DNA of 64,000 bases from Prorocentrum cordatum (lineage: Eukaryota; Sar; Dinophyceae; Prorocentrales; Prorocentraceae). The notes below the pieces were generated by a model that saw only the letters and a list, made by a program, of their open reading frames with translations, had not been told where the DNA came from and ran no database searches. This document shows positions 3,128 to 20,470 of the stretch, piece by piece. Every line of letters starts with the position of its first letter. Position 1 is the stretch's first letter. The DNA is taken from the NCBI GenBank assembly GCA_963575745.1, contig CAUYUJ010005044.1, positions 1 through 64,000 of the forward strand, read 5' to 3'. The position numbers were made by a program, and so were the translations under genes.

Positions 3128-6100
3128 CTACTGCTCGAAGTTGTCGATCGCCAGCTGGAGGATCCGCTCCGTGTTCGAGCGAGGCGCGACTCCTGGTTTG
3201 TGTTCCCCTCCCAATTGCGTGAGGCGCGCTATGAAGGCCGACGTCAGCGACGAGTCCGCAAACGAGAAGGTGATCTTCGCTTGGCCTTCCTTGTATGCGC
3301 GGGCCACCCCGAAGCCGCGAACCAGAAGACCGAACTCCGTGAGATTCGTGATGCCGTCCAGCTTCTGATGCTGCTCCTGCCACTTCTGCTGGTTGGCCGC
3401 CCCGACCGCCACGCCTGCCTTCGCGATTACCTTGCACACGATGAGGAAAACTTGAACGCAAGCAGGCCCCATGGCGACCTCGGGGAGTGGCTTCGCCTGG
3501 TCCTTGGCGTGCTCCTCCCTCATGGCCGCTGCCTGCTTCGCGTGGGCCCTGCCTGCTGCAGAAAGGTTTGAAATTCCGCTGCGTTCAAGGCCCGAATCTG
3601 GTGCGAGTTCGCCAGCACTCCACGAATCAGGATGGGGAATATCTTGGCCATCACCTGAAGGTCCATCGGCGGCAGCTTGTTGAGAACGTCGGCCTCCAGA
3701 CCATAGGCCTTGCCGAGCTGAGCCGCCACCGCTGCGCCCGCCGACGCCTGTCCGCGCTGCTGGGCGCCTCGAGGCTCGGCGCTGCGTCTGGCCCCGCGTC
3801 CCCCGCCACGCCTGCGGGAAGCGGCTGCCGAGCCAGATCGGTCTGCCCGCCCTCTCGGCTGAGAGCCGCCGCGCTGGGTTGAACGGGAACGAGTTCCTGC
3901 ATCCCGCAAGGCCTCGTCGGAAAGGCGGTGCATCAGAGCGCGACCGAACCGTCGAGTAGAGAGGCTCTCGTGGGGCGTGGGCTTCGCGCAGATGCCGAGA
4001 AAGCTCGTGGAGTGTGCCAAACGGCTGTTCGACGGAGCAACATAAATCCGAAGAGGTTCCACCATGCACCGAGCACACCTTGAGAGACACGAACGGGCAC
4101 TCCAGGGACTCAGGCGGCGCGATGGGGTGCTTGAAGGGGGAGGCCTGGGCGAAGCACCTGCCTGTAAGCGTAGCCTGGACGAGATGTTCCTGGGCAGTCC
4201 TCCGAGTCCGAAACGTCTGAGTGCAGAAACTACATTGGTTCGTGACCGTGGCCGCGTGCAACACCGATCGACACGAGTGGCCTCCCCCGAGAGAGAACCT
4301 CTGATGCGCCAGGAGAGCCCGTCTGGTCTTGAAAACTCGATCGCACTCAGCTCCGTCGGGACCACGAAGATCGCATGTCCATGTAGCCGCAGGCGGCGGT
4401 GGGGCGACTTCGGGCGCCACGGGAACGGCCTCAGCAGGTCCATGCAGTCCAGGAGGAGGAGGAATCGCTACCGTCCGTGCCGCAGCTCGAAGAAAGCCTG
4501 GGGCCAGGGCAAGATACCTCCCACGAAGGTCGTCATGCAGAAAAAGCGCCCGAACATTCAAGCGCCTCCATTGTTCCAAGGACGGGGCCGAAACCAGGAG
4601 CAACTCCTCCAGATCCTTAGCCTCGGAGCGGTCCAGGAGCCTCAAAACATCCTGACCAAACCTGCGAGCGTACGGGTTCACCGTGTTCCCGAGGGTGCCG
4701 TTCTCCGAAACCGTGGGGGCCTCTTCTAGCGGGAGCTGCCCAAACACCGCAGCGATCTCTTGAGGTTGCCGAGAAGGACACACGAGCCAACGACGATACA
4801 TGCGAAGTCGGCGGACACAGAGTTCGACCCCAGACGGCGCCGCCCCCGCTCTGCGCAGGACGACCGCATCGGAGAGGGCCTTATACTTGAGAACCTCGTG
4901 ACCCTCGTCGTCGATAATGGGCATGTCGTCGCCGTCCACTACCGTCGTCTTAGCGCGCGCTTCGCCCCCGAGCAACTTTCGGCCGAACCCGACAAGCACG
5001 CGATCAAGCCGAGACTCCTGGGCCTCTGTCAGGATGAGGGTGGTGAGGCCAGACAAGAGCGCACCCTGCACGACGGCCCCAAATACGGTGCGAGTAAAAC
5101 GCCACACTCTGTTCCGAGACCAGAACCTCCCCATCGAGTAGTACCCCCTCCTGCGCGCCACGATCCGTCTCCTCAACTCTCCTTGAACTCCTCCATTCAC
5201 GGCAGTCTGGATTCCGAGCGCGATGTTATCAAACTGCACCGGCCCTTCCACCTTCACCTGTCCCCCGAAGATCGCAGCAGCATGTGCGTGAGCTCCTCGA
5301 CCGACGAACGACGGGGAAATGCTACGTTTCCCACGGTTGCGCGCGTGCCCACTCTCCCTCAGCGCAGCCGTCAGGCCCCTGTGGGCCGTATTCAAAGTGA
5401 ACTGCGCATTTCCAGCCGTTGTCACCACATGAGTCTTACTGGTATCATCAGCATAGATGCGGCACGAGAGATCCACGGGGCGATGGATAAAAGGCGCCCA
5501 TGCTGTACACAGAGACTCGCTGGGCCACATCACCTGCGCCCAGTCGCGGGGAGGAACGAGGAACGAGAGGTTGATCAAGCCACTCTTGGTACGAGAGAGG
5601 ACGAGGAGGGACATCAGCAGGCCAAACCTGCGAACGCATAAAGTCAAGCCACTTCTGCACAGGCCGTCTAAAGGTGCGTGAAAAAATACTGCCGCTGGAC
5701 TGTCGCCCATGAACGCTCCACAGCGATTGTGCATGGTAAGCTCCCCGTCGGCCCCCGTGATGGTGAAGGTGCTGTATTCATGCCTATGATGGAAGTAGGC
5801 CTGATCAGGCCCCGCGATAGACTCGGCCACCGTGCGCCTAAGTTCAGGAAGCGTAGAACACCCAAAGGCGTTGGACATATCCTCCTTCGAGGTCACCGAA
5901 GAGATCCCCAGACTGCGCAGCCTGCCCAAGAGGGCCTCTTGACAGATCATGGCCCCCTCCCTGTTGCGCCCATGGTGGTACCCGTGTTCGCGGTCTGGGG
6001 CCTCATCGGGGGGACCTTTCAGTAGCTGCGCCTTAAACCAGACGACCCCCATCCGACACAGCCAGTGAATGTACCTGAGGGCCCCGAAGCCTTGCTTGCC

Positions 6101-6511
6101 ATTCTGCTTGCTCAATCCAGTTGCCCGAGAGTGATGCCAGACCAGCGGGGTCCTACCTACCCTCCGGATGTGGTGGAACACCTTCTGGAGCCCCCTGAGC
6201 GTGTGAGCGTTGTCGAACGACTCGGGTGCAGTGCCTAACCCACGGCGATCCCCCGCTGAGCGATGACGAGGCACAAAGGCAGGAACTCGAGAAGGTCCGT
6301 CGCCGTCCTCATCGTCGTTGTCTCTCTTCTTCGGCCGCCGATAGGTGCCGTCGAATCGTCGCTGAGGATGGAGGGCCAATATGAGGACCTCTGAGGGTGC
6401 ACTGTGCAGCGGGGCGGCCTTACGACGGGGGGCCTTCGCCAGCAGCTCAAGAACCTGTTCGAGGTCGGACCGCCCAAGCTCAACGTGCTCGAAGTTATCG
6501 ATGCCGTACAT
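3128..6511 (-). CDS. LINE reverse transcriptase with zinc-finger tail
   Basis: An RNA-dependent DNA polymerase of 1127 open codons. The finger region contains TPLVWHHSRATGLSKQNGK; motif A is DMSNAFG (5860-5880) and motif C is IYADDTSK (YADD at 5445-5456). An apparent 50-60 residue insertion precedes motif C. After the thumb come Cys/His clusters, CDLRGPDGAECDRVF with ALLAHQR, then QCSFCTQTFRTRR with a later His and Cys, resembling the nucleic-acid-binding tails of LINE ORF2 proteins. The frame stays open to 3128, but between about 3960 and 3540 the plausible protein lies in another frame. The last ~130 residues read as a helical domain of unknown function. Confidence 0.85.
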   Translation of the reverse strand: MYGIDNFEHVELGRSDLEQVLELLAKAPRRKAAPLHSAPSEVLILALHPQRRFDGTYRRPKKRDNDDEDGDGPSRVPAFVPRHRSAGDRRGLGTAPESFDNAHTLRGLQKVFHHIRRVGRTPLVWHHSRATGLSKQNGKQGFGALRYIHWLCRMGVVWFKAQLLKGPPDEAPDREHGYHHGRNREGAMICQEALLGRLRSLGISSVTSKEDMSNAFGCSTLPELRRTVAESIAGPDQAYFHHRHEYSTFTITGADGELTMHNRCGAFMGDSPAAVFFHAPLDGLCRSGLTLCVRRFGLLMSLLVLSRTKSGLINLSFLVPPRDWAQVMWPSESLCTAWAPFIHRPVDLSCRIYADDTSKTHVVTTAGNAQFTLNTAHRGLTAALRESGHARNRGKRSISPSFVGRGAHAHAAAIFGGQVKVEGPVQFDNIALGIQTAVNGGVQGELRRRIVARRRGYYSMGRFWSRNRVWRFTRTVFGAVVQGALLSGLTTLILTEAQESRLDRVLVGFGRKLLGGEARAKTTVVDGDDMPIIDDEGHEVLKYKALSDAVVLRRAGAAPSGVELCVRRLRMYRRWLVCPSRQPQEIAAVFGQLPLEEAPTVSENGTLGNTVNPYARRFGQDVLRLLDRSEAKDLEELLLVSAPSLEQWRRLNVRALFLHDDLRGRYLALAPGFLRAAARTVAIPPPPGLHGPAEAVPVAPEVAPPPPAATWTCDLRGPDGAECDRVFKTRRALLAHQRFSLGGGHSCRSVLHAATVTNQCSFCTQTFRTRRTAQEHLVQATLTGRCFAQASPFKHPIAPPESLECPFVSLKVCSVHGGTSSDLCCSVEQPFGTLHELSRHLREAHAPREPLYSTVRSRSDAPPFRRGLAGCRNSFPFNPARRLSAERAGRPIWLGSRFPQAWRGTRGQTQRRASRRPAARTGVGGRSGGGSARQGLWSGGRRSQQAAADGPSGDGQDIPHPDSWSAGELAPDSGLERSGISNLSAAGRAHAKQAAAMREEHAKDQAKPLPEVAMGPACVQVFLIVCKVIAKAGVAVGAANQQKWQEQHQKLDGITNLTEFGLLVRGFGVARAYKEGQAKITFSFADSSLTSAFIARLTQLGGEHKPGVAPRSNTERILQLAIDNFEQ
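3520..3960 (-). pseudogene. Frame-shifted part of the LINE C-terminal helical domain
   Basis: This frame reads Arg/Ser/Gly-rich sequence, then a helical segment with KAYGLEADVLNKLPPMDLQ and IRALNAAEFQTFL. The same domain continues below 3540 in the RT frame (KLDGITNLTEFGLLVRGFGV). I do not recognise the family with confidence. It could be a LINE accessory domain or the start of another element. Confidence 0.5.
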
Positions 6512-12769: not shown

Positions 12770-13224
12770 TTTCTCGGGAGCCTCTGAACCTGTCGGGGGC
12801 CTCCTGGAAGCAGGTTCGAAGCATTTTGGGGGCCGATTTGGGGCTTCTCGGGGCCTCCTTTGGGCCTCTTGGGGGTCTCCTGGGGCCTCTTGAGGGGCCT
12901 CCTTGGGGCCTCCTGGCGGCCTCTTGGGGCGGAAGGCTCGAGCTTGCGGTTCGTGGTCCCCCTCTGGGCCCCCTCTTGGGCCCGTCTTGGGGCCCTCTTG
13001 GGCCATCTTGGGCGCCTCTTGGGCCGTCTTGGGGCCCTCTTGGGCTGTCCTGGGGCCCTCTTGGAAGCTTCTTGGGCCGTCTTGGGGCGGTCTTGGAGGC
13101 CTCTTGGGCCGTCTTGGACGCGGTGAAAGCCCAAGATGCGAACATGCGAAAAATATACGTTTTCCCATAGGAATGGCACGATTTTTGTTTCTTGGACCTC
13201 TTGGGGTGCCTCTCGGAACGTCTT
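12770..13224. repeat. CTTGG satellite (family S2), left of YR element 1
   Basis: Degenerate 15-25 bp units such as GGCCTCTTGGGCCGTCTTGG fill 12,830-13,115. A conserved non-repetitive core follows at about 13,121-13,200 containing TATACGTTTTCCCATAGG. The block stops exactly at 13,224, where the YR retrotransposon begins. The same core recurs beyond the element at 19,915 and 20,258. Confidence 0.9.
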
Positions 13225-13314
13225 TGATTGGTCCATTTTGCCAGTGGCACATGCTGCTTGAGGAAACGAACGAAGCACGGGCAAGCTAGGCTGGCTAGTG
13301 CGACACAGATTTGC
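13225..13314 (-). repeat. Split direct repeat A1 (outer 3' end)
   Basis: 90 bp beginning TGATTGGTCCATTTTGCCAG on the plus strand, identical to 13,421-13,510. Its left edge is the element boundary. Confidence 0.95.
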
Positions 13315-13353
13315 TCCAGGCACGGATTAAAGGAGGCATTGGGCTGGCGAGGG

Positions 13354-13420
13354 CCGAAGAGAAGTGCCTGTGAGATAAACGGCGGCAGACATTCACAATC
13401 ATTCCCGTGCATCACTTACA
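13354..13420 (-). repeat. Split direct repeat B1 (internal)
   Basis: 67 bp identical to 19,611-19,677, separated from A1 by 39 bp and abutting A2 with no gap. Confidence 0.95.
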
Positions 13421-13510
13421 TGATTGGTCCATTTTGCCAGTGGCACATGCTGCTTGAGGAAACGAACGAAGCACGGGCAAGCTAGGCTGGCTAGTGCGAC
13501 ACAGATTTGC
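13421..13510 (-). repeat. Split direct repeat A2 (internal)
   Basis: 90 bp identical to A1. The B1|A2 junction ACTTACA|TGATTGG equals what would form if the element's two outer ends were joined. Confidence 0.95.
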
Positions 13511-13551
13511 CAACCTTCAAAAAGCCCGACCTCAAGCATTGAACTGGGGAG

Positions 13552-14310
13552 TTATATTCCTCGCATGTGTTTCCACCTTCCGATGGACTGCTGGGCTATA
13601 CACGACTTGTGCAGGCTGTCAGCCAAGAGTGCACACAGAGCAGAAGGGTAGGCGTTTTTCATTAGCGTGCAAAACTTGTTGCCAGAAAAACCTGTGAGCT
13701 CCACGTGGGGCTTACGGGAGAAGCTACATATACCTCTGCCAGTGCATACTAGTTTATCAAGACCAGGGTGGGGCGCGCACTTCCAGAACCGAATCCTGGT
13801 TCGAGCTCTGAAGGGGCGCCCACAGGCACAGTAGTCCACAACTTTATCACGCACCTGAGGGAGCTTGGCGAAGGAGCGACGATCAGGGCGAAGCCACAGA
13901 AAGCTCTGCCAGGGATTTTCTTCGGCTCCTGGCACGTTCAGTTTATAGCACAGGCGTTGAATTCGCTGGGACACCCACCCTAGCCTATTGGAGACAGTGA
14001 GGTTTTCGAGGTCCTTGCCCGAAAGACCTGGAAGACCCATGGGACACGAGGGGCTTCTGAGGGCGGAAGGCATCTTGCTGTGCCTAGGGGCCCGTCGGGC
14101 CCTCGAGTACCCACTGCAGGGCGTCCCAAGAAACACGAGCTTTACAAGGCCAGAAGAAATCCAACCTCTCAAAACCTTAAAAACAGCCGGGCGAGTCAGA
14201 TCAAAATGGGCACCGTGGCGAAGATCCCACTCGATGACCGCCTCTCCTCTCTGCCTCAGGTGTTTACTCAATTCCCCACATCCAGAGAAGACTTCTATGC
14301 ATACGCGGGA
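13552..14310 (-). CDS. YR element 1, cytosine-C5-methyltransferase-like domain
   Basis: About 250 residues in the RT frame, starting where the recombinase stops. CIEVFSGCGELSKHL (14,257-14,306) matches the SAM-binding motif I of C5 methyltransferases. VFLGTPCSGYSRARR (about 14,095-14,136) matches motif IV with the Pro-Cys catalytic pair. GAEENPWQSFLW occupies the place of the ENV motif VI, and RARTRIRF could be motif VIII. The target-recognition region is short and motifs IX-X are not evident, so activity is uncertain. It would need a -1 shift from the recombinase, read-on from RT, or its own message. The stop lies 41 bp before repeat A2. Confidence 0.7.
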   Translation of the reverse strand, partial: SRVCIEVFSGCGELSKHLRQRGEAVIEWDLRHGAHFDLTRPAVFKVLRGWISSGLVKLVFLGTPCSGYSRARRAPRHSKMPSALRSPSCPMGLPGLSGKDLENLTVSNRLGWVSQRIQRLCYKLNVPGAEENPWQSFLWLRPDRRSFAKLPQVRDKVVDYCACGRPFRARTRIRFWKCAPHPGLDKLVCTGRGICSFSRKPHVELTGFSGNKFCTLMKNAYPSALCALLADSLHKSCIAQQSIGRWKHMRGI

Positions 14311-15716
14311 CTGGTGCGGCGCGGAGCGAAGTGCAGCACCAAGGACTTGTTGAAGGCGAGCGCGCAGTCCTGTCCTTTGGCTCGCAGGGCCTCGCGCTGC
14401 CTGGACGACAGCTTGCGAAGCTCGAGGGACAGACGGCCATGCTTCTCGTACCTGAGCACTGACTTGAACGTCTTCCATCCCCCGCGCTGCTGGACGCCGC
14501 CTAAGCTTCTGACGCCCATGCTGCGGTCCTGGCTGGCCCCTCCATGCCGGAGGGAGTAGAGGGTGGGCCTGAGTACACCCACATCCAGCGCCTCGATCGC
14601 GCTCTGGAAGTCCTCCGCCAGCTCTGTGTAGCTCAGGCCCAGGAACAGCGCGTCGGGCTCGCGAAGGGCTTGAACGAAGGAGATCGGCTTCACCAGCCAC
14701 TGTTGCCTCTGGAGGTCGAGGGGCACTGAGAGGTCGTACTCGTTGGTCTTTGTGGGGACCTCGTACTCCGATGCTCGCACCACAAAGGTCAGAAAGGCTG
14801 AGGCGCCACCTTCCTCCGGAAGGGGGAGCACCACCTGGCGGGCTCGCAAAGCCAGAACCTCCGACGGGCGCATGTAGGTCTCGAACATTATCACGATGGC
14901 GAGGGCGCTCAACGGTTTTCCAGCTTGGCACAGCCAGGTTGCCGCCGCCAGCATCACGAGGTACGGCACGGGCGGCCTGGACTTGGAGGGCTCCAGCACC
15001 CCCCATCCTCGCAGCGTCTGGTGGGTCAGCGGGAAGACTTCGCGGATACCAGCCGTATGCAGGTGGGGCTCCGCCCACAACAGTGCCGGGGCCAGCCGCT
15101 GCGTCGACGCCTTCGAGCCCCCCCTGTCGTAGATCGACTCGATGTACTCGGCGAGGGTCTCGTCCCAGGTCTGGCGGCTCCAGTCCGGGAGGCAGCCCAG
15201 ACACAGCCAGCGAACCAGACCAAGGACAGCTCCAAGATGCAGCTGCTGCGTGGCGAAGCGCACCTTGGCCGCCGCAAGCCGCGTCTGGCGGGGGCACAGG
15301 CGCCGCCTCCTCTGGTCGAGGTCTCTCTCCCAGGGATCCTGGCCACGCCTTGCGCGCCGCCCAGCCGCGACGAGCCTGCTCCTTGGCCCAGCCAGCGCCG
15401 GGACGCCTGCCGCGCGGGCCTGGCGACGAGGTGAGCGCCACCGCGGCCGCGCCTGCGGGCGGCCCGTAGGGGGGCTGCCATTGCCCCGCGGCTGCTGCAC
15501 CGTCAGGCGCTCCACCGTGCGGCTGCAGGGCGAACGGCTCCTGCGCAAGCTCCGCTCGTGAAGGGCGGAGCGGGGGCGGGGCCGCCTCGCTGGGCTCGCC
15601 GGCGTCGGCAGCTTTGCCTGCAGCGTCGCCACCTCCATTCCGCCCGGCGTCGGCAGCCGCGGGGACCCCGTCGGGGCCGCGAGGCTTGGGCTGAAAGCGA
15701 CGGGAGGGTGCATCAC
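14295..15716 (-). CDS. YR element 1, tyrosine recombinase
   Basis: Integrase of the lambda/Cre class that would insert a circular DNA copy. The first ~130 codons are low-complexity Arg/Pro and may not be translated; convincing protein starts near 15,320 (RLAAAKVRFATQQLHLG). Core-binding helices follow, then catalytic boxes: TYMRPSEVLALR (first Arg, 14,861-14,880), PTKTNEYDLS (beta-hairpin Lys), TLYSLRHGGASQD (second Arg, 14,521-14,552; the usual box-II His is Tyr) and GGWKTFKSVLRYEK with Trp and the nucleophile Tyr (codon 14,448-14,450). It lies +1 relative to the RT frame. Confidence 0.88.
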   Translation of the reverse strand: MMHPPVAFSPSLAAPTGSPRLPTPGGMEVATLQAKLPTPASPARRPRPRSALHERSLRRSRSPCSRTVERLTVQQPRGNGSPPTGRPQARPRWRSPRRQARAAGVPALAGPRSRLVAAGRRARRGQDPWERDLDQRRRRLCPRQTRLAAAKVRFATQQLHLGAVLGLVRWLCLGCLPDWSRQTWDETLAEYIESIYDRGGSKASTQRLAPALLWAEPHLHTAGIREVFPLTHQTLRGWGVLEPSKSRPPVPYLVMLAAATWLCQAGKPLSALAIVIMFETYMRPSEVLALRARQVVLPLPEEGGASAFLTFVVRASEYEVPTKTNEYDLSVPLDLQRQQWLVKPISFVQALREPDALFLGLSYTELAEDFQSAIEALDVGVLRPTLYSLRHGGASQDRSMGVRSLGGVQQRGGWKTFKSVLRYEKHGRLSLELRKLSSRQREALRAKGQDCALAFNKSLVLHFAPRRTSPAYA

Positions 15717-17934
15717 TTGGGTTCCACTCGGACGGAATCCACCTCACCTGGATTTTAAGATCGGCGGCAATACCCACAGCAAGCAGCACACGACAGACTC
15801 CCAGAAGACGATGATTAGCCGCCCGACCCTTTGCAGCCGCAAGGGTGAGAGACATGTTATCGCCCAGAAAAAGCCTGCGGGCGCCGTGCTGGCGCGCATC
15901 TCTGCCGGCCCGCCTCACGGCCCAGGTGAGGGCGGCGCCCTCGAGCCCGTGGATCGCTTCCTTCCGCTTCCACCTTCCGCAGCCTACCACTCGCCAGGTC
16001 CTGGACTGCAGCGTGCTGTGGCTGACCTCCGGAAAGCGGGCGACGCGCCCGACGAGCAGCAGGGCGGGGTCGGGCGCGCAGGCGACCTCGTGCTCGAACG
16101 CCCTCTCGCGAGGCGCGCCCTCGGTCGCGAGCACGCCTCTGAAGCGGGCGCGCTCAGACACCCTCCCCACGCGCTGCACGTCGCCCAGGTCCCACTCGGT
16201 CTCGACGACTCCATACCCCCAAGGGGAGGCGTCGAAGCACGTGACGAGCTCCGACCAGGGCCGTCTGGTGTCCGACCTGAGGCAGGGCAGGAGCGCCTTG
16301 ACCCAGCCCAGCTCGCGGAGGACGCTCTTCCAGAGGGGCTGCCGCTTGGTGTAGGAGGCCTGCACGAACTCGTACGAAGAATGAAGCAAAGCCAGACCTT
16401 CACGCCGCAGCATGAACGCTGCCACGATGTGACCAATCAGGCGCTCCAGCTCCTGGCCCGAGACCTTGACTCTCCGGGAGAGAAGGTGTTCGAGCGCGCC
16501 ATACAGGCGCCACAGACGGCGGCCAGACACCTGCCAGCAGCCTGTGCGAAGGTCAAGCTCGCACCCGAGCAGCTCGCCCACCTCGCTGGCCTGGGGGTCC
16601 AACTCGGACACCACTCCCTTGGCCGCGAGCGCCGCCTTCATGTCATAGGCGGCCTGGGCAGCGCGCTGGGGCGAGGCAGACAGCACGGCGAAATTGTCGA
16701 TATACAAAACCTTGGCGTCCTCCACGCTCAGGTCTATCCCCGGGTGCTTGTCCACGCACCACGGCTGGGACGGCAAAACTGACTTGACGATGTGGAGGTG
16801 AGCCTCCTGGATGAAGTGAACGGCCCAGTTCCAGCCCATCGGCGCGACCTTGAAACGAAAACGGACCTGGCCGCTCTTCCCTGACAACCCACAGGCGTTC
16901 CTGACCTCGAGCGGCAAGAAGCGACTCTGAATAGTCGGCAGGTTGAAGTAGCGCCTACACCAGGGCGGAAGTGAGTATTGATAGAAACAGCAGTCAACGT
17001 CTCCAGAACTCATGCCGATGAAGTTCACCCCCGACGCCTCCAGCGAGGAGAGAGCCTCGCCCGTCGCAAGGGCGGTGTGGTTAGGAACAGTGAAGTGCAT
17101 GTTGGGAGTCCTGGTGTCGCAGATGAGACGCAGCCGCTTATCCTTGCGGGCGACGAAGAACATGCCCGCCTCTTCGAGCACCGGCTCTGAGCTGCACTCG
17201 ATGACCCCCGAGGCGAAGAGCTCGCCCAGCGCGTGGCCATAGTCGTAGCCCAGGCGGCCCAGCTTTGGATCCATGGCGCGAGGAGCACCTGCATCACGAA
17301 TTAGCGCTGCTGCCTCCTCAGGGGAACGCAACAGCCCGCGCCCAGACTCCAGCTTGGATTGCAGATCAGCAGGAAGGACGTCCACGAGGGGGACCTTGCC
17401 AGCACCGATCTTGGGAAGCGAGATGTTCCCCCGCTGGTAGACTGTTCGAGCACCTGCGGCCTCGGCTTCAGAGTAGCCAGGCCTGAGACCCTGCAGCAAC
17501 GACCATGCCGCATGGGGACTTGGACGATCAACGGGCGGAGACCACTTGCCGTAAAGCGAGGCCAGCCGCCGCACGGCCACACGTTGGGCCGCCGTCAGCG
17601 GGGCGTGGCTGGGCACCTGTCGCCCCTGCCCGCCCAGCTCATTGAGGGAGGCGATGCCCTCGAGAAGCCACTGGTCCTGCCGCCTCCTCGTGGCTGATCT
17701 CCGCTTCGCCGATGGAGAGGTGCCCCATGCGCCTTCACCACTGAGCAAGGAACGAAGCTCTGCGCCAACAGGAATCGGCAGAAGGTCTCGATGACGGCCT
17801 CCGACGTCCTCATCTGAAAACATAGCGCCCACGCGGCGCCTCCCCTTGAAAATAGTCGACCGCTCGGGGGCAGGCGGGCGACCAAGCCACTTCTCGAACA
17901 GGATGAGGGCGTCAGGCCCTCTCAGCCACGCCCT
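15691..17934 (-). CDS. YR element 1, reverse transcriptase-RNase H
   Basis: It converts the element RNA to DNA and degrades the template. RT: LRLICDTRTPN finger strand, motif A SSGDVDCCFYQY (about 16,978-17,015), motif B FRFKVAPMGWNWA, and motif C YIDN (16,693-16,704) where YxDD is usual, so the second Asp is Asn. RNase H: TCFDASPWGYG, GLEGAALTWA, LFLGDNMSLTLA and WIPSEWNPSDAPSR carry the D-E-D-D set. The reading frame is open from 19,137 to 13,552, but codons before about 17,934 lie over gag. Past 15,690 it runs through a Pro/Ala/Gly linker and then over the recombinase frame. Confidence 0.9.
17911..17917 (-). other. Candidate +1 frameshift site at the Gag stop
   Basis: The minus strand reads GCC UGA C. 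Skipping the U after GCC reads GAC and enters the RT frame (D-A-L-I-L-F-E-K-W) without loss of sequence. The context resembles antizyme (UCC UGA U) and prfB (CUU UGA C) sites. The RT frame is also open upstream, so other shift points or internal starts are possible. Confidence 0.45.
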
Positions 17935-19231
17935 TCGCCTTGGCCTTTGACCTGGCCTTGGCAGGGGCTCCACTGTCGTCATCTCCTCCACCCGGGCCGA
18001 CACCGCGAGCCAGGATCTTCTCCTCGCGACCCTTGCGGCGCTCCTTGAGCACCGCTGCCTCGGCCTGGAGGCGGTCCGCCACCCAGGTCTGCAGCTCAGG
18101 GCAGACGAGCGCTCCTCCTCTGCCCCGCTCCTGGCCCAGGAAGATCTCGCGCTCATCCAGCCACGCCGAACTCCCTGAGCTGCGCAGCGCACCGCTCTCG
18201 TGCTCGCGCAGCCTGTTGGCGTAGATCTCCTCCCAGAGCTGGTAGCGCCTCGCGACCGTCTCGTACACTGCCAGCTCACCTTCATTAAGCTGGTCCGTCT
18301 GAGCCCCCATCTCGAGGAGCTCCGACAAGAACTGGTGCTCGTCAACGCCTGCATCCGCTGCCGTGAGGTTCTGAGTCTGGCGCCACCACTGGTGCCGCTG
18401 CAAGGGCGTCTGACCGAGTCGCTTGAACTGCTGCACCAGCCACAGGGTCGTGCGGGGGCCCTTGATAGGCCAGTCGGGCATGGCGGTCGAGGACATCCGA
18501 TCCACCGCATCGGCGAAGTCCCTGACGCGGACGCCACGCGCGTCGTACCTGACAGGAAGCGTCCGCAAGTCCTGCTCGGCTGCCGCCCGTGGCGTGGCGG
18601 TGCTCTCCAGCGTCCCCTCTTTGGCCACAGCCAGCACGGTGCCGTCGGTGAGCTCGCAGACGCCACGGTCGCCCAGAACGGCCTCGGGCTGCTGCAGCCC
18701 GACCTCGTCTCCAGGTTTGTAGCCAGCCCGCTCCTCGGCGGCCACCCAGCGAACAGACTTGCCAGCGCCACCAGCGCGAGCAGCGCCGCCCTGAGCGGCC
18801 CCAGGGGCGCCTGGGGGCGGCGGCAGGGGAAGCTGGGCAGCATCCCCGTCGGCGGCGGCGTCGGCGAGGGCGCCAGGCGGGCCCTCTGGGAGCCCCTCGG
18901 CCTCGCGGATCTCCTTGGCCAGCTGACGGCCCTCCCCGAGCAGTCGCGCCTCGTTGCGCCTGAACCTGTCCATGTCCAGGCGCAGGATGTGCCCATTGAG
19001 CTTGGTGGGCAGCCCCCCTCGGGGGCCGATGAGGCAGAGCGCGAGACTCTCCGAGAAGTCCTCCTCATAGATGTCGAAGTGTGGGGTGACCACAATGAAG
19101 CGCGTGTCGGTAACCTTCCCGATGATATATCTTTCATGCCAGTAGTTGTCGTCTCGATCGTAGTAGGCGAGGACCCTGCACCCGATCGATAGGCTCTCCA
19201 ACGCCCTGGCCGTGCGCGCTGCTGACATCAA
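17912..19231 (-). CDS. YR element 1, Gag-like structural protein
   Basis: 439 codons. Residues about 15-60 (GCRVLAYYDRDDNYWHERY then KVTDTRFIVVTPHFDIYEED) read like a small beta-barrel of SH3/Tudor type. A Pro/Ala/Gly linker follows, then a helical region about 215-400 (TTLWLVQQFKRLGQTPLQRH, LYETVARRYQLWEEIYANR-like) and a Lys/Arg/Ala tail suited to nucleic-acid binding. Position before RT suggests a capsid or RNP protein. There is no CCHC knuckle. The frame ends at a UGA in a GCC-UGA-C context that may be bypassed by +1 shifting into RT. Confidence 0.7.
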   Translation of the reverse strand: MMSAARTARALESLSIGCRVLAYYDRDDNYWHERYIIGKVTDTRFIVVTPHFDIYEEDFSESLALCLIGPRGGLPTKLNGHILRLDMDRFRRNEARLLGEGRQLAKEIREAEGLPEGPPGALADAAADGDAAQLPLPPPPGAPGAAQGGAARAGGAGKSVRWVAAEERAGYKPGDEVGLQQPEAVLGDRGVCELTDGTVLAVAKEGTLESTATPRAAAEQDLRTLPVRYDARGVRVRDFADAVDRMSSTAMPDWPIKGPRTTLWLVQQFKRLGQTPLQRHQWWRQTQNLTAADAGVDEHQFLSELLEMGAQTDQLNEGELAVYETVARRYQLWEEIYANRLREHESGALRSSGSSAWLDEREIFLGQERGRGGALVCPELQTWVADRLQAEAAVLKERRKGREEKILARGVGPGGGDDDSGAPAKARSKAKAKGVAERA

Positions 19232-19649
19232 TCGGTTCCGAGGTCACGGGAGCAGAGCGACGGCCGAACACACAGGCGACCTCGCGCAGCACCGCGCCCA
19301 GTACAAGCCCCAACAGCAGCGCCAGGACCACCTCGAGCCCGGTGTGCCCGGGCGGGCAAGGGGCGCAGGCTGGGCAGTCAGGTGCAAAGGCGGGCTGCCC
19401 GTGGAGGTGCTCTGGCCCGCACCTGTCGAGCTGCCCCTTGAGCAGCCCGATCAGCGCCTCGTCTGGCGAGGCCTCGAAGTGGCAGGAGCACTCGCACCCG
19501 TGCCCCTGGCTGGTGCCGCCCAGCCAGGTGCCCAGCGCCTGCCCGCTGATGGCCGCAGCCCACTGCGCGCCAGCGCCGAGGAGCCGCCCTGCCATCAACG
19601 ATGCCTCCTTCCGAAGAGAAGTGCCTGTGAGATAAACGGCGGCAGACAT
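19134..19649 (-). CDS. YR element 1, small leading ORF: Cys-rich, one membrane helix
   Basis: A 171-codon frame starting in the terminal repeat, with an alternative in-frame ATG at about 19,596. The N-terminal half holds clustered cysteines (CECSCHFE, then CGPEHLH and CPACAPCPPG). One strongly hydrophobic segment, LEVVLALLLGLVLGAVL, follows, then basic residues. It overlaps the Gag frame by 98 nt, where the real protein probably ends or shifts +1. I do not recognise the family. Membrane-anchored proteins are not typical of Ngaro elements, so the function is open. Confidence 0.6.
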   Translation of the reverse strand: MSAAVYLTGTSLRKEASLMAGRLLGAGAQWAAAISGQALGTWLGGTSQGHGCECSCHFEASPDEALIGLLKGQLDRCGPEHLHGQPAFAPDCPACAPCPPGHTGLEVVLALLLGLVLGAVLREVACVFGRRSAPVTSEPIDVSSAHGQGVGEPIDRVQGPRLLRSRRQLLA

Positions 19650-19677
19650 TCACAATCATTCCCGTGCATCACTTACA
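19611..19677 (-). repeat. Split direct repeat B2 (outer 5' end)
   Basis: 67 bp identical to B1. In coding orientation the element starts TGTAAGTGATGCACGGG. The first ATG of the small leading ORF (19,649) lies within the repeat. Confidence 0.95.
19625..19676 (-). other. Intron-like segment inside terminal repeat B2
   Basis: Reading the minus strand, GTAAGT lies one base inside the element end and TTTATCTCACAG|G ends 52 nt later. These match canonical donor and acceptor sites. This could be a minimal intron, a trans-splice acceptor or coincidence. Confidence 0.3.
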
Positions 19678-20470
19678 GGGCTGATTTTGGAAGCCTTTTG
19701 GCGCCTCAGGGTGGCGTTTTGGCGCCTCCTGGGATATGTTGGGCCGGAAGCTCGGAATTCGAGAGTGGCTTTCTCCTTCTGGGACCCCTCTCGAAGTCGT
19801 CTTGGGGTTCTCTTGGGCCGTCTTGGGGCCGTCCTGAGCCACTCGTGCGCAGCCTTGGAGCGCTCCCGGAGGCCTCCTAGGCCGTCTTGGAGGCCTCTTG
19901 GGCCGTCTTGGACGCGGTGAAAGCCCAAGATGCGAACATGCGAAAAATATACGTTTTCCCATAGGAATGGCACGATTTTTGTTTCTTGGACCTCTCTTGG
20001 GGTGCCTCTCGGAACGTCTTGGGGTGCTTTTGGGAGCCTTTTGGCGCCTCTTGGCGGCATTTTGGCGCCTCCTGGAGCCTCTTGGGCCGGAAGCTCGGAA
20101 TTCGAGGTTGGCTTTCTCCGTCTGGGACCCCTCTCGAACTCGTCTTGGGGCTCTCTTCGGCCGTCTTGGGGCCGTCCTGGGACACTCGTGCGCAGCCTTG
20201 GAGCGCTCCCGGAGGCCTCGTAGACCGTCTTGGGCGCCTCTTGGGCCGTCTTGGACGCGGTGAAAACCCAAGAGGCGAACATGCGAAAAAAATACGTTTT
20301 CCCATAGGAATGGCACGATTTTTGCTTCTTGGGCCTCTCTTGGGCTGCCTCTCGAAGCGTCTTGGAGGCTTCTGGGACCTTCTTGGTGTCATAATAGGCG
20401 TCTTGGAAGGCATCTGGAGCCATCGGAGCGCGTTTCGAAGCCGCCTGCGAACGATCTTGGACGGCGTCCG
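19678..20470. repeat. S2 satellite, 343-bp higher-order unit
   Basis: It resumes the array interrupted at 13,224. The core CGGTGAAA...TACGTTTTCCCATAGG occurs at 19,915 and again at 20,258, giving a 343-bp period with CTTGGG-type subrepeats between. It includes the uninterrupted version of the YR insertion site at about 20,012-20,030. Confidence 0.9.

Follow-up and report, generated by a model that had tools for sequence, protein, structure and literature searches.

A tyrosine-recombinase retrotransposon of Prorocentrum cordatum with its recombinase gene nested in the pol frame and a predicted compact C5 cytosine methyltransferase domain

Retrotransposons that carry cytosine methylases are already known in related algae (PMC5890265). 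In Symbiodinium, SymbioDIRS-Dnmt3 (de Mendoza et al. 2018) has repeats in the order A-coding-B-A-B and a DNA methyltransferase (DNMT) in its Pol polyprotein, and de novo CG methylation was demonstrated for it in yeast (PMC5890265). The sequence-only reading of the locus described here had taken the combination of a cytosine methyltransferase with a split-direct-repeat element as one not known before; the Symbiodinium element is a published precedent. Both are dinoflagellate tyrosine recombinase (YR) retrotransposons present in many copies, with a C5 DNMT that is under purifying selection and shares the Pol ORF with RT, and with the YR in an ORF of its own (PMC5890265). However, the SymbioDIRS DNMT is of the Dnmt3 type and detectable with PF00145, whereas the domain studied here, compared with it by description only, is compact, missed by Pfam and has a CCCH set. 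In addition, our element has its YR gene embedded within the pol ORF, ahead of the methyltransferase, and the passages of PMC5890265 describe no such nesting.

Other known systems share some of these properties. DIRS1-like elements have a pol made of RT, RNase H and methyltransferase, produce no target duplication and may have a YR ORF overlapping pol (PMC3266345), and our element resembles them in these respects, its RNase H being a candidate by motif. They differ in having inverted terminal repeats and ICRs (PMC3266345) and in their Dam-like methyltransferase (PMC5890265); our element has no terminal inverted repeats, and its domain has a predicted C5 fold and does not fit the adenine, Dam-like type. 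Ngaro and VIPER have the split direct repeats A1 ... B1-A2-B2, with a reverse-transcription model that includes inter-repeat annealing, but they have no methyltransferase (PMC3266345), and the passages on them mention no C5 methyltransferase. SymbioLINE-Dnmt and KnitGypsy-Dnmt3 are likewise retrotransposon-captured cytosine methyltransferases, but reside in LINE and Gypsy elements with other integration machinery and other DNMT types (PMC5890265). In the open-licence PMC literature, we found no published description of the Prorocentrum element and none pairing Prorocentrum with DIRS.

The window, by which we mean the whole 64,000-nucleotide stretch of Prorocentrum cordatum DNA that was analysed, contains a complete YR retrotransposon of 6453 bp at 13225-19677 on the minus strand. 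The left terminal repeat A1 (19611..19677), which is the 5′ end, and its internal copy A2 (13354..13420) are identical over 67 bp. The right repeat is present as an internal copy B1 (13421..13510) and as the terminal copy B2 (13225..13314), the 3′ end, identical over 90 bp. All four are on the minus strand, and neither pair extends further. B1 directly adjoins A2, so that the two together spell the circle junction, and a 39-bp spacer (13315-13353) separates A2 from B2. This A1-ORFs-B1-A2-B2 arrangement of split direct repeats is the PAT-like/Ngaro-like plan, and no terminal inverted repeat was present among the eight inverted pairs of at least 20 nt found.

The insertion is flanked by a host repeat of 343-bp period (19678..20320, plus strand), of which 19994-20320 serves as the empty site. 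The joined flanks match this neighbouring repeat copy at 93% over 427 columns, with two gap columns ∼25 bp from the junction (by eye) and no bases duplicated or lost at the junction itself. Positions 13225 and 19677 are therefore the true ends, and for the window insertion, the one read from this empty site, we directly observed the lack of target duplication. L047 and L048, two further copies in the genome, share the length of exactly 6453 bp and have different flanks. When seven sibling stretches were searched for repeats, the B pair was found in all seven and the A pair in five. Rfam at the gathering score gave no match in the window.

Next, we examined the ORFs, which were called mechanically using bacterial start rules and are all on the minus strand. 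ORF0 (19134..19649) encodes a small Cys-containing protein with one hydrophobic, transmembrane-like 19-mer, and relatives of it stand upstream of Gag in 18 of the 20 fetched copies. The Gag-like ORF (17912..19231, 439 aa) is named from its position and matches none of the Pfam families; it was matched upstream of RT in all 20 fetched copies. The pol frame (13552..19137) is open for 1861 aa, its portion upstream of ∼17910 overlapping Gag, and holds RT-RNase H (∼17910-15700), then a linker over the YR, with the methyltransferase last. The RT matches Pfam RVT_1 weakly in the window (E 0.014, below the Pfam cut-off), and RVT_1 was matched by five of the nine aligned copies, the window included (best E 2e-4). 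The element is thus predicted from these matches to encode an RT, as expected for the order DIRS. The RNase H motifs were recognised by eye only, none of the nine aligned copies, the window included, having a Pfam RNase H match. The YR ORF (14295..15716, 473 aa) lies in the +1 frame, nested inside the pol frame. Its Pfam match in the window is weak (Phage_integrase, E 0.016), and the structural matches of its AF2 model (pLDDT 82) include Cre, XerA, lambda Int and other tyrosine recombinases, so the protein is, as modelled, a tyrosine recombinase, which also agrees with the order DIRS. The initial description of an intact-looking split-direct-repeat YR retrotransposon thus stands in its repeats, boundaries and domain order. 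It had overlooked that RT and methyltransferase share a frame, with the YR nested between them in another.

The C-terminal domain of the pol frame (13552..14310, minus strand, 252 aa) is predicted to have a compact C5 cytosine methyltransferase fold: the model reached pLDDT 93, and all 50 Foldseek matches listed were C5 enzymes. The fold search therefore places the domain inside the C5 methyltransferases, and not outside the SAM-dependent methyltransferases. The FSGCGEL, GTPCSGYS and EENP boxes, on which the C5 assignment had been based, are present. What that assignment had missed is that the domain does not belong to the Dnmt3 type recognised by PF00145. At E<=10, the window domain has no Pfam match and none of 34 family members matches PF00145; among 73 relatives, one PF00145 match was observed (E 0.093). 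With such figures, the target base is not readable from a close homologue. No NCBIfam family matches the window domain, and the NCBIfam Dcm model matches one of the 73 relatives (E 0.054). The same genome has 129 PF00145 matches among those listed, none of them, by eye, at the listed places of the family. A profile search of PDB sequences gave nine matches at E<=10, all non-significant, three of them C5 enzymes. The region expected for the target-recognition domain is short, a feature that might equally fit an enzyme acting on RNA.

We then counted residues over 73 aligned relatives, taken from 122 sequences; their correspondence to those of C5 enzymes is by motif order and fold. The PC Cys of motif IV (C65) is kept in 72/72 relatives with a letter and in 39/40 of the genome's own copies, and the ENP Glu of motif VI (E131) in 72/73 and 37/40, respectively. 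The motif IV PC and motif VI EN(V/P) catalytic residues thus appear from the alignment to be retained. The first Gly of motif I is kept in 58/58 relatives with a letter, the second in 40/58. Of the motif VIII arginines, R170 is present in 40/40 and R172 in 37/40 of the genome's copies, R172 falling to 34/73 across the family. A CCCH set is invariant: C161 in 73/73, and C189, C195 and H202 in 72/72 each.

Such a domain may methylate RNA, either the element RNA or a primer tRNA, for instance stabilising the template or blocking RNA restriction. The compact domain leaves little space for target recognition, the best PDB profile match is the non-significant one to DNMT2 (E 0.13), whose motifs I and IV are in register, and for SymbioLINE-Dnmt the possibility of RNA methylation is brought up by de Mendoza et al. 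(PMC5890265). We regard an RNA target as unlikely, but it is the alternative that survives best. A second possibility is that the C5 fold serves as a nucleic-acid-binding or structural module, with CCCH as a zinc site and catalysis secondary. The CCCH residues are conserved like the catalytic ones and the motif VIII arginine is kept in fewer than half of the relatives, but a binding module would not need the PC Cys, ENP Glu and motif I Gly that are retained, which makes this reading quite improbable. It is also rather improbable that the element is simply the Prorocentrum member of SymbioDIRS-Dnmt3. The repeat plan, the DNMT in the RT ORF and the YR in a separate ORF are all alike; however, the DNMTs of SymbioDIRS were identified through PF00145 and group with Dnmt3 (PMC5890265), whereas the window domain escapes PF00145 in a genome where that profile finds many other matches.

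The methyltransferase family has at least 153 matches listed in the genome. The domain, whole or in part, follows 91 of the 93 nearest recombinase pieces among those listed. For 75 this was established by list comparison, which used 102 of the 153 methyltransferase places, and for 16 of the other 18 by fetching downstream DNA, several of these late finds being short remnants. As 90 of 170,764 first-look recombinase candidates were scored, these counts cover the nearest relatives. Only two of the 93 lacked any trace in the ∼1.1 kb fetched downstream (C4327 and C15150, of which C15150 is itself short), and among these nearest relatives the idea of siblings without the domain was rejected.

The dN/dS of the domain was 0.141 among 13 copies of the window family (A; 78 pairs), 0.097 among 17 copies of family B (136 pairs) and 0.087 between A and B (17 pairs), where that of RT was 0.157 (two pairs). 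In the small groups C and D, values of 0.19 and 0.26 indicate weaker constraint. Constraint on the YR is weak (0.32-0.51, with 1.4 in D from three pairs). From the larger comparisons (0.09-0.14), the domain is thus estimated to be under purifying selection; both this and its regular presence in siblings had been proposed as checks on the original claim, and both agree with it. Distances of RT and methyltransferase correlate over 12 copies (r 0.984; 0/2000 permutations). Fold, conservation and dN/dS led us to reject the idea that the motifs arose by chance in a GC-rich frame. We also considered a viral origin: one profile scan of viral_contigs gave 49 pattern matches, among which tblastn found no relative, a weak test with a single pattern, and the idea was dropped.

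The nesting itself was directly observed. RT and methyltransferase share one frame, with the YR in +1, in 21/21 copies. Across the YR, the pol frame of 10 representatives (of the 21 copies, near-duplicates avoided and pieces <250 nt dropped) has 0 stops vs 41.9 expected, whereas the same frame relation elsewhere gives 199 vs 225 in RT and 109 vs 122 in the methyltransferase. The first 20 copies had been picked largely for long open frames, a choice biased towards pol frames free of stops, but the openness holds on retesting with the 30 best matches chosen by similarity alone (pieces <240 nt dropped). In these, which represent two families and not 30 independent cases, we observed 3 pol-frame stops over the YR vs 170.7 expected, 3 stops in the YR's own frame, and 409 vs 407.4 in a control region. 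Thus the pol frame is kept stop-free across the nested YR. Indels shifted the frame relation of YR to methyltransferase in 6/35 YR pieces of the 30 copies, and the linker is poorly conserved as protein.

Other signals of double coding are mixed. A codon position 2 rate equal to or above that of position 1 was seen between close families and absent in three deeper pairs; 6 of the 17 B copies were dropped from this comparison, having no long YR match. A dS in the YR below that of the methyltransferase would agree with double coding, but dS is low in RT too, where no second gene overlaps; the reduction is therefore ambiguous, and we dropped it as proof. Outside proteins gave a mixed picture of the linker frame. 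Of the 24 in which the domain is preceded by 50 aa or more, P0021 (E 5e-13), P0045 (3e-5), P0086 (3e-4) and P0057 (4e-4) have their best match in the pol-frame linker, P0033 (1e-33) and P0108 (1e-15) match the YR frame, and the others show no clear preference. As a control frame reaches E 0.001, only the lowest E values mean much, and these relatives were not relied on as proof of nesting. That ribosomes shift +1 into the YR and back, making an RT-RH-YR-MT polyprotein with the open pol frame incidental, is very improbable: the domains are collinear, and in P0108 and P0033 (relatives or gene models) the YR and methyltransferase frames coincide, but incidental openness would hardly be maintained with stops as few as in the YR's own frame, P0126 seems to switch frame within the alignment like a broken copy, and predicted introns are probably what links the RT and YR frames in P0122 and P0128, two Prorocentrum models.

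Taken as a whole, the locus is best explained, with a probability of roughly 55%, as a young, complete copy of an element on the PAT/Ngaro plan, with a nested YR and a C5 methyltransferase acting on the element's own cDNA. The pol protein would run from RT and RNase H through the poorly conserved linker to the compact methyltransferase. As to expression, we infer that the recombinase would be made from the second gene inside the pol ORF, by frameshift or by translation starting internally close to where RNase H ends. Once the RNA has been reverse-transcribed, a circle would be templated by the B1-A2 junction, and the recombinase would insert it without target duplication. The methyltransferase is in the same protein as RT, and its most likely substrate would be cytosines in newly made element cDNA; that the target is DNA and not RNA is likewise inferred, with the de novo CG methylation by SymbioDIRS-Dnmt3 in yeast as a precedent (PMC5890265). 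The presumed benefit is that methylated extrachromosomal DNA would resemble host DNA, if the host is heavily methylated as reported for Symbiodinium, and may thereby escape degradation or recognition. The self-silencing or protection suggested earlier is better put in this form, self-silencing being without direct support. CpG is mildly depleted in the element (o/e 0.87 vs 0.91 for the window), and C-to-T at CpG exceeds that at other C/G sites 1.7-fold only (14 and 21 events); such decay is weak as proof of self-methylation and was not used.

A more far-reaching reading, which we hold tentatively and at somewhat less than even odds, is that a compact zinc-site class of C5 DNA methyltransferases, missed by Pfam-based surveys and previously undescribed, has spread with dinoflagellate YR retrotransposons whose genome is forked: one long pol ORF would contain a complete recombinase gene, catalytic domain included, in +1. 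The alternative-frame reading of the YR would then be a tether of the methylase to RT, and the cDNA would be methylated during synthesis.

Two aspects of this element are new. One is a predicted compact C5 family with an invariant CCCH set, missed by PF00145 and set apart from SymbioDIRS by description; the other is the recombinase gene nested +1 within the pol ORF, after RNase H and before the methyltransferase. Together with the Dam-like enzymes of DIRS1 and the Dnmt3 of SymbioDIRS, the compact C5 domain is apparently a third route to a methyltransferase in YR retrotransposons, which argues that methylation of cDNA is useful to elements integrating via a DNA circle. It also suggests that PF00145-based DNMT counts overlook this family, whose listed matches number at least 153, in a 4-Gb bloom-forming dinoflagellate. 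Finally, the nested recombinase is a long example of a catalytic enzyme encoded within a eukaryotic gene in a second frame, and its many natural copies lend themselves to tests of double-coding evolution.

The element, a tyrosine-recombinase (YR) retrotransposon, lies on the minus strand at 13225–19677, with exact ends and a length of 6453 bp. Its split direct repeats, also on the minus strand, are A1 (19611–19677) and A2 (13354–13420), identical over 67 bp, and B1 (13421–13510) and B2 (13225–13314), identical over 90 bp; neither identity extends further. As B1 directly adjoins A2, the internal B1–A2 block has the sequence expected where the two ends join upon circularization. Both flanks are parts of a host repeat (12884–13224 and 19678–20400), which has a 343-bp period and degenerate CTTGGG-type subrepeats. 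When joined and compared with a neighbouring repeat copy, which serves as the empty site, the flanks matched at 93% over 427 columns, with two gap columns placed by eye ∼25 bp from the junction, and neither target duplication nor loss was seen at this junction. The siblings L047 and L048 are also 6453 bp long and have flanks different from those in the window. Because four window-family copies are 98.8–99.3% identical (6095 aligned bases), the family appears to have been active recently.

The minus-strand gene order is ORF0, a Gag-like ORF, reverse transcriptase (RT), RNase H, YR and a C5-cytosine-methyltransferase-like (MT) domain (13552–14310, 252 aa). Pfam matches in the window were weak (RT, E 0.014; YR, E 0.016). 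The identity of YR was secured by structure: an AF2 model from 12 sequences (pLDDT 82, pTM 0.66) had Cre, XerA and integron and phage integrases as its best PDB matches. RVT_1 matched five of nine aligned copies, including that of the window (best E 2e-4), and RNase H was assigned by our reading of its motifs, without a search match. The usual RT active-site box is YxDD; here (RT at 15801–17910, minus; RT residues 403–406) it is YIDN, with Y, I and N invariant in all nine aligned copies. ORF0 (19134–19649, minus), upstream of Gag, has Cys motifs and a transmembrane-like segment, which would be surprising for a YR retrotransposon if the protein is indeed membrane-bound. Its relatives were present in 18 of 20 fetched copies, and 15 of 19 open stretches examined contained a 19-mer with a mean hydropathy of at least 2.0. 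Elsewhere in the window (3128–6511, minus), a 1127-aa open frame gave weak matches to C2H2 zinc fingers that did not reach the cut-off (E 2.6e-4).

RT and MT share the pol frame (13552–19137), and the YR ORF (14295–15716) lies between them in the +1 frame; this held in all 21 copies, with MT identity down to 44%, and in 20 of them the RT frame was stop-free across the entire RT–MT interval (1.0–1.5 kb). We estimated the expected stops by shuffling synonymous codons of YR in 10 representatives, and observed none in the pol frame over YR against 41.9 expected. Equivalent frame relations gave 199 stops versus 225 expected over RT, 109 versus 122 over MT and 56 versus 75 over Gag, and the other alternative frame over YR gave 75 versus 78. 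As these copies had been chosen partly for long open frames, the same test was then applied to the 30 top matches by similarity alone, 13 from the window family (A) and 17 from a second family (B). The pol frame over YR then had three stops against 170.7 expected, equal to the three in YR's own frame, while the MT control had 409 against 407.4; indels altered the frame relation to MT in 6 of 35 YR pieces.

The second codon position of YR corresponds to the third in the pol frame; it changed more than position 1 both between A and B (0.217 versus 0.196) and within B (0.123 versus 0.095), opposite to the pattern in MT (0.129 versus 0.187, A and B). In three deeper pairs, unlike the close families, position 1 was the faster. 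Since amino-acid conservation of the linker is low (54% versus 70% for YR, A and B), the pol frame over YR is maintained as an open frame and not as a fold. Our reading is that the same DNA would encode one RT–RNase H–linker–MT protein and a separately expressed YR, which may be produced through frameshifting or internal initiation. YR and MT stand in a single frame in two outside sequences, P0108 and P0033, the latter a gene model that may contain a predicted intron. Among NCBI-sourced P. cordatum proteins, P0122, P0123, P0128 and P0033 are retrotransposon pieces annotated as host 'unnamed protein product'; in P0122 and P0128, the RT and YR frames are merged in one gene model, probably by predicted introns.

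Purifying selection on the MT domain, a check named in the sequence-only reading, was evident in the larger sets (dN/dS 0.087–0.141): 0.141 within 13 A copies (78 pairs), 0.097 within 17 B copies (136 pairs) and 0.087 for the window copy against B (17 pairs). RT gave 0.157 between A and B (2 pairs). Values for MT in the small groups C and D were 0.192 (21 pairs) and 0.262 (3 pairs; RT in D, 0.201). YR was less constrained than MT (0.32–0.51 in large sets, 1.4 in D). RT and MT distances correlated over 12 copies, several of them close relatives (r 0.984; 0 of 2000 permutations). The genome searched comprised 4.13 Gb in 21,875 contigs; the published P. cordatum assembly has 4.15 Gbp, 22,724 scaffolds and 59.7% GC (PMC10666404). 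The same reading had proposed looking for the domain in sibling copies, and it was found, in full or in part, beside most of the 93 YR pieces listed (90 of 170,764 candidates scored): an MT piece lay downstream of 75 (comparison with 102 of 153 MT places), and 16 of the remaining 18 had part of the domain. Together, the dN/dS values, the distance correlation and this linkage point to MT being an old, vertically inherited component of this element clade, among the nearest YR relatives. Third-position GC was lower in the MT region (0.55–0.62) than in Gag, RT and YR (0.67–0.89) in all 12 representatives. Separately, the PF00145 cytosine-methyltransferase matches listed in the genome number 129; many lie in repeated open frames of 380–480 aa, which makes them look like another repeat family that carries a DNMT, as SymbioLINE-Dnmt does.

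The replication route of PAT/Ngaro elements (PMC6681497) is the basis of the analogy used here. By this analogy, the transcript would be reverse transcribed, form a circle via B1–A2 and be inserted by YR. Direct support in this element comes from the repeat arrangement and the clean target site. Because MT shares a frame with RT, the element cDNA would be the obvious substrate of its predicted activity. No strong compositional mark of self-methylation was found. The analogous domain of SymbioDIRS-Dnmt3 from Symbiodinium performs de novo CG methylation in yeast; the same study proposes that methylated cDNA may escape recognition as exogenous DNA (PMC5890265).

That same source already describes a C5 MT in a split-direct-repeat element, a combination for which the sequence-only reading named no precedent. 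DIRS1, too, may have overlapping pol and YR ORFs, but there the shared stretch does not include the catalytic domain of YR (PMC3266345). The present element differs from SymbioDIRS-Dnmt3 in its enzyme class and in the recombinase nested in the pol frame. It is therefore a variant of known elements, and these two features are what is new here.
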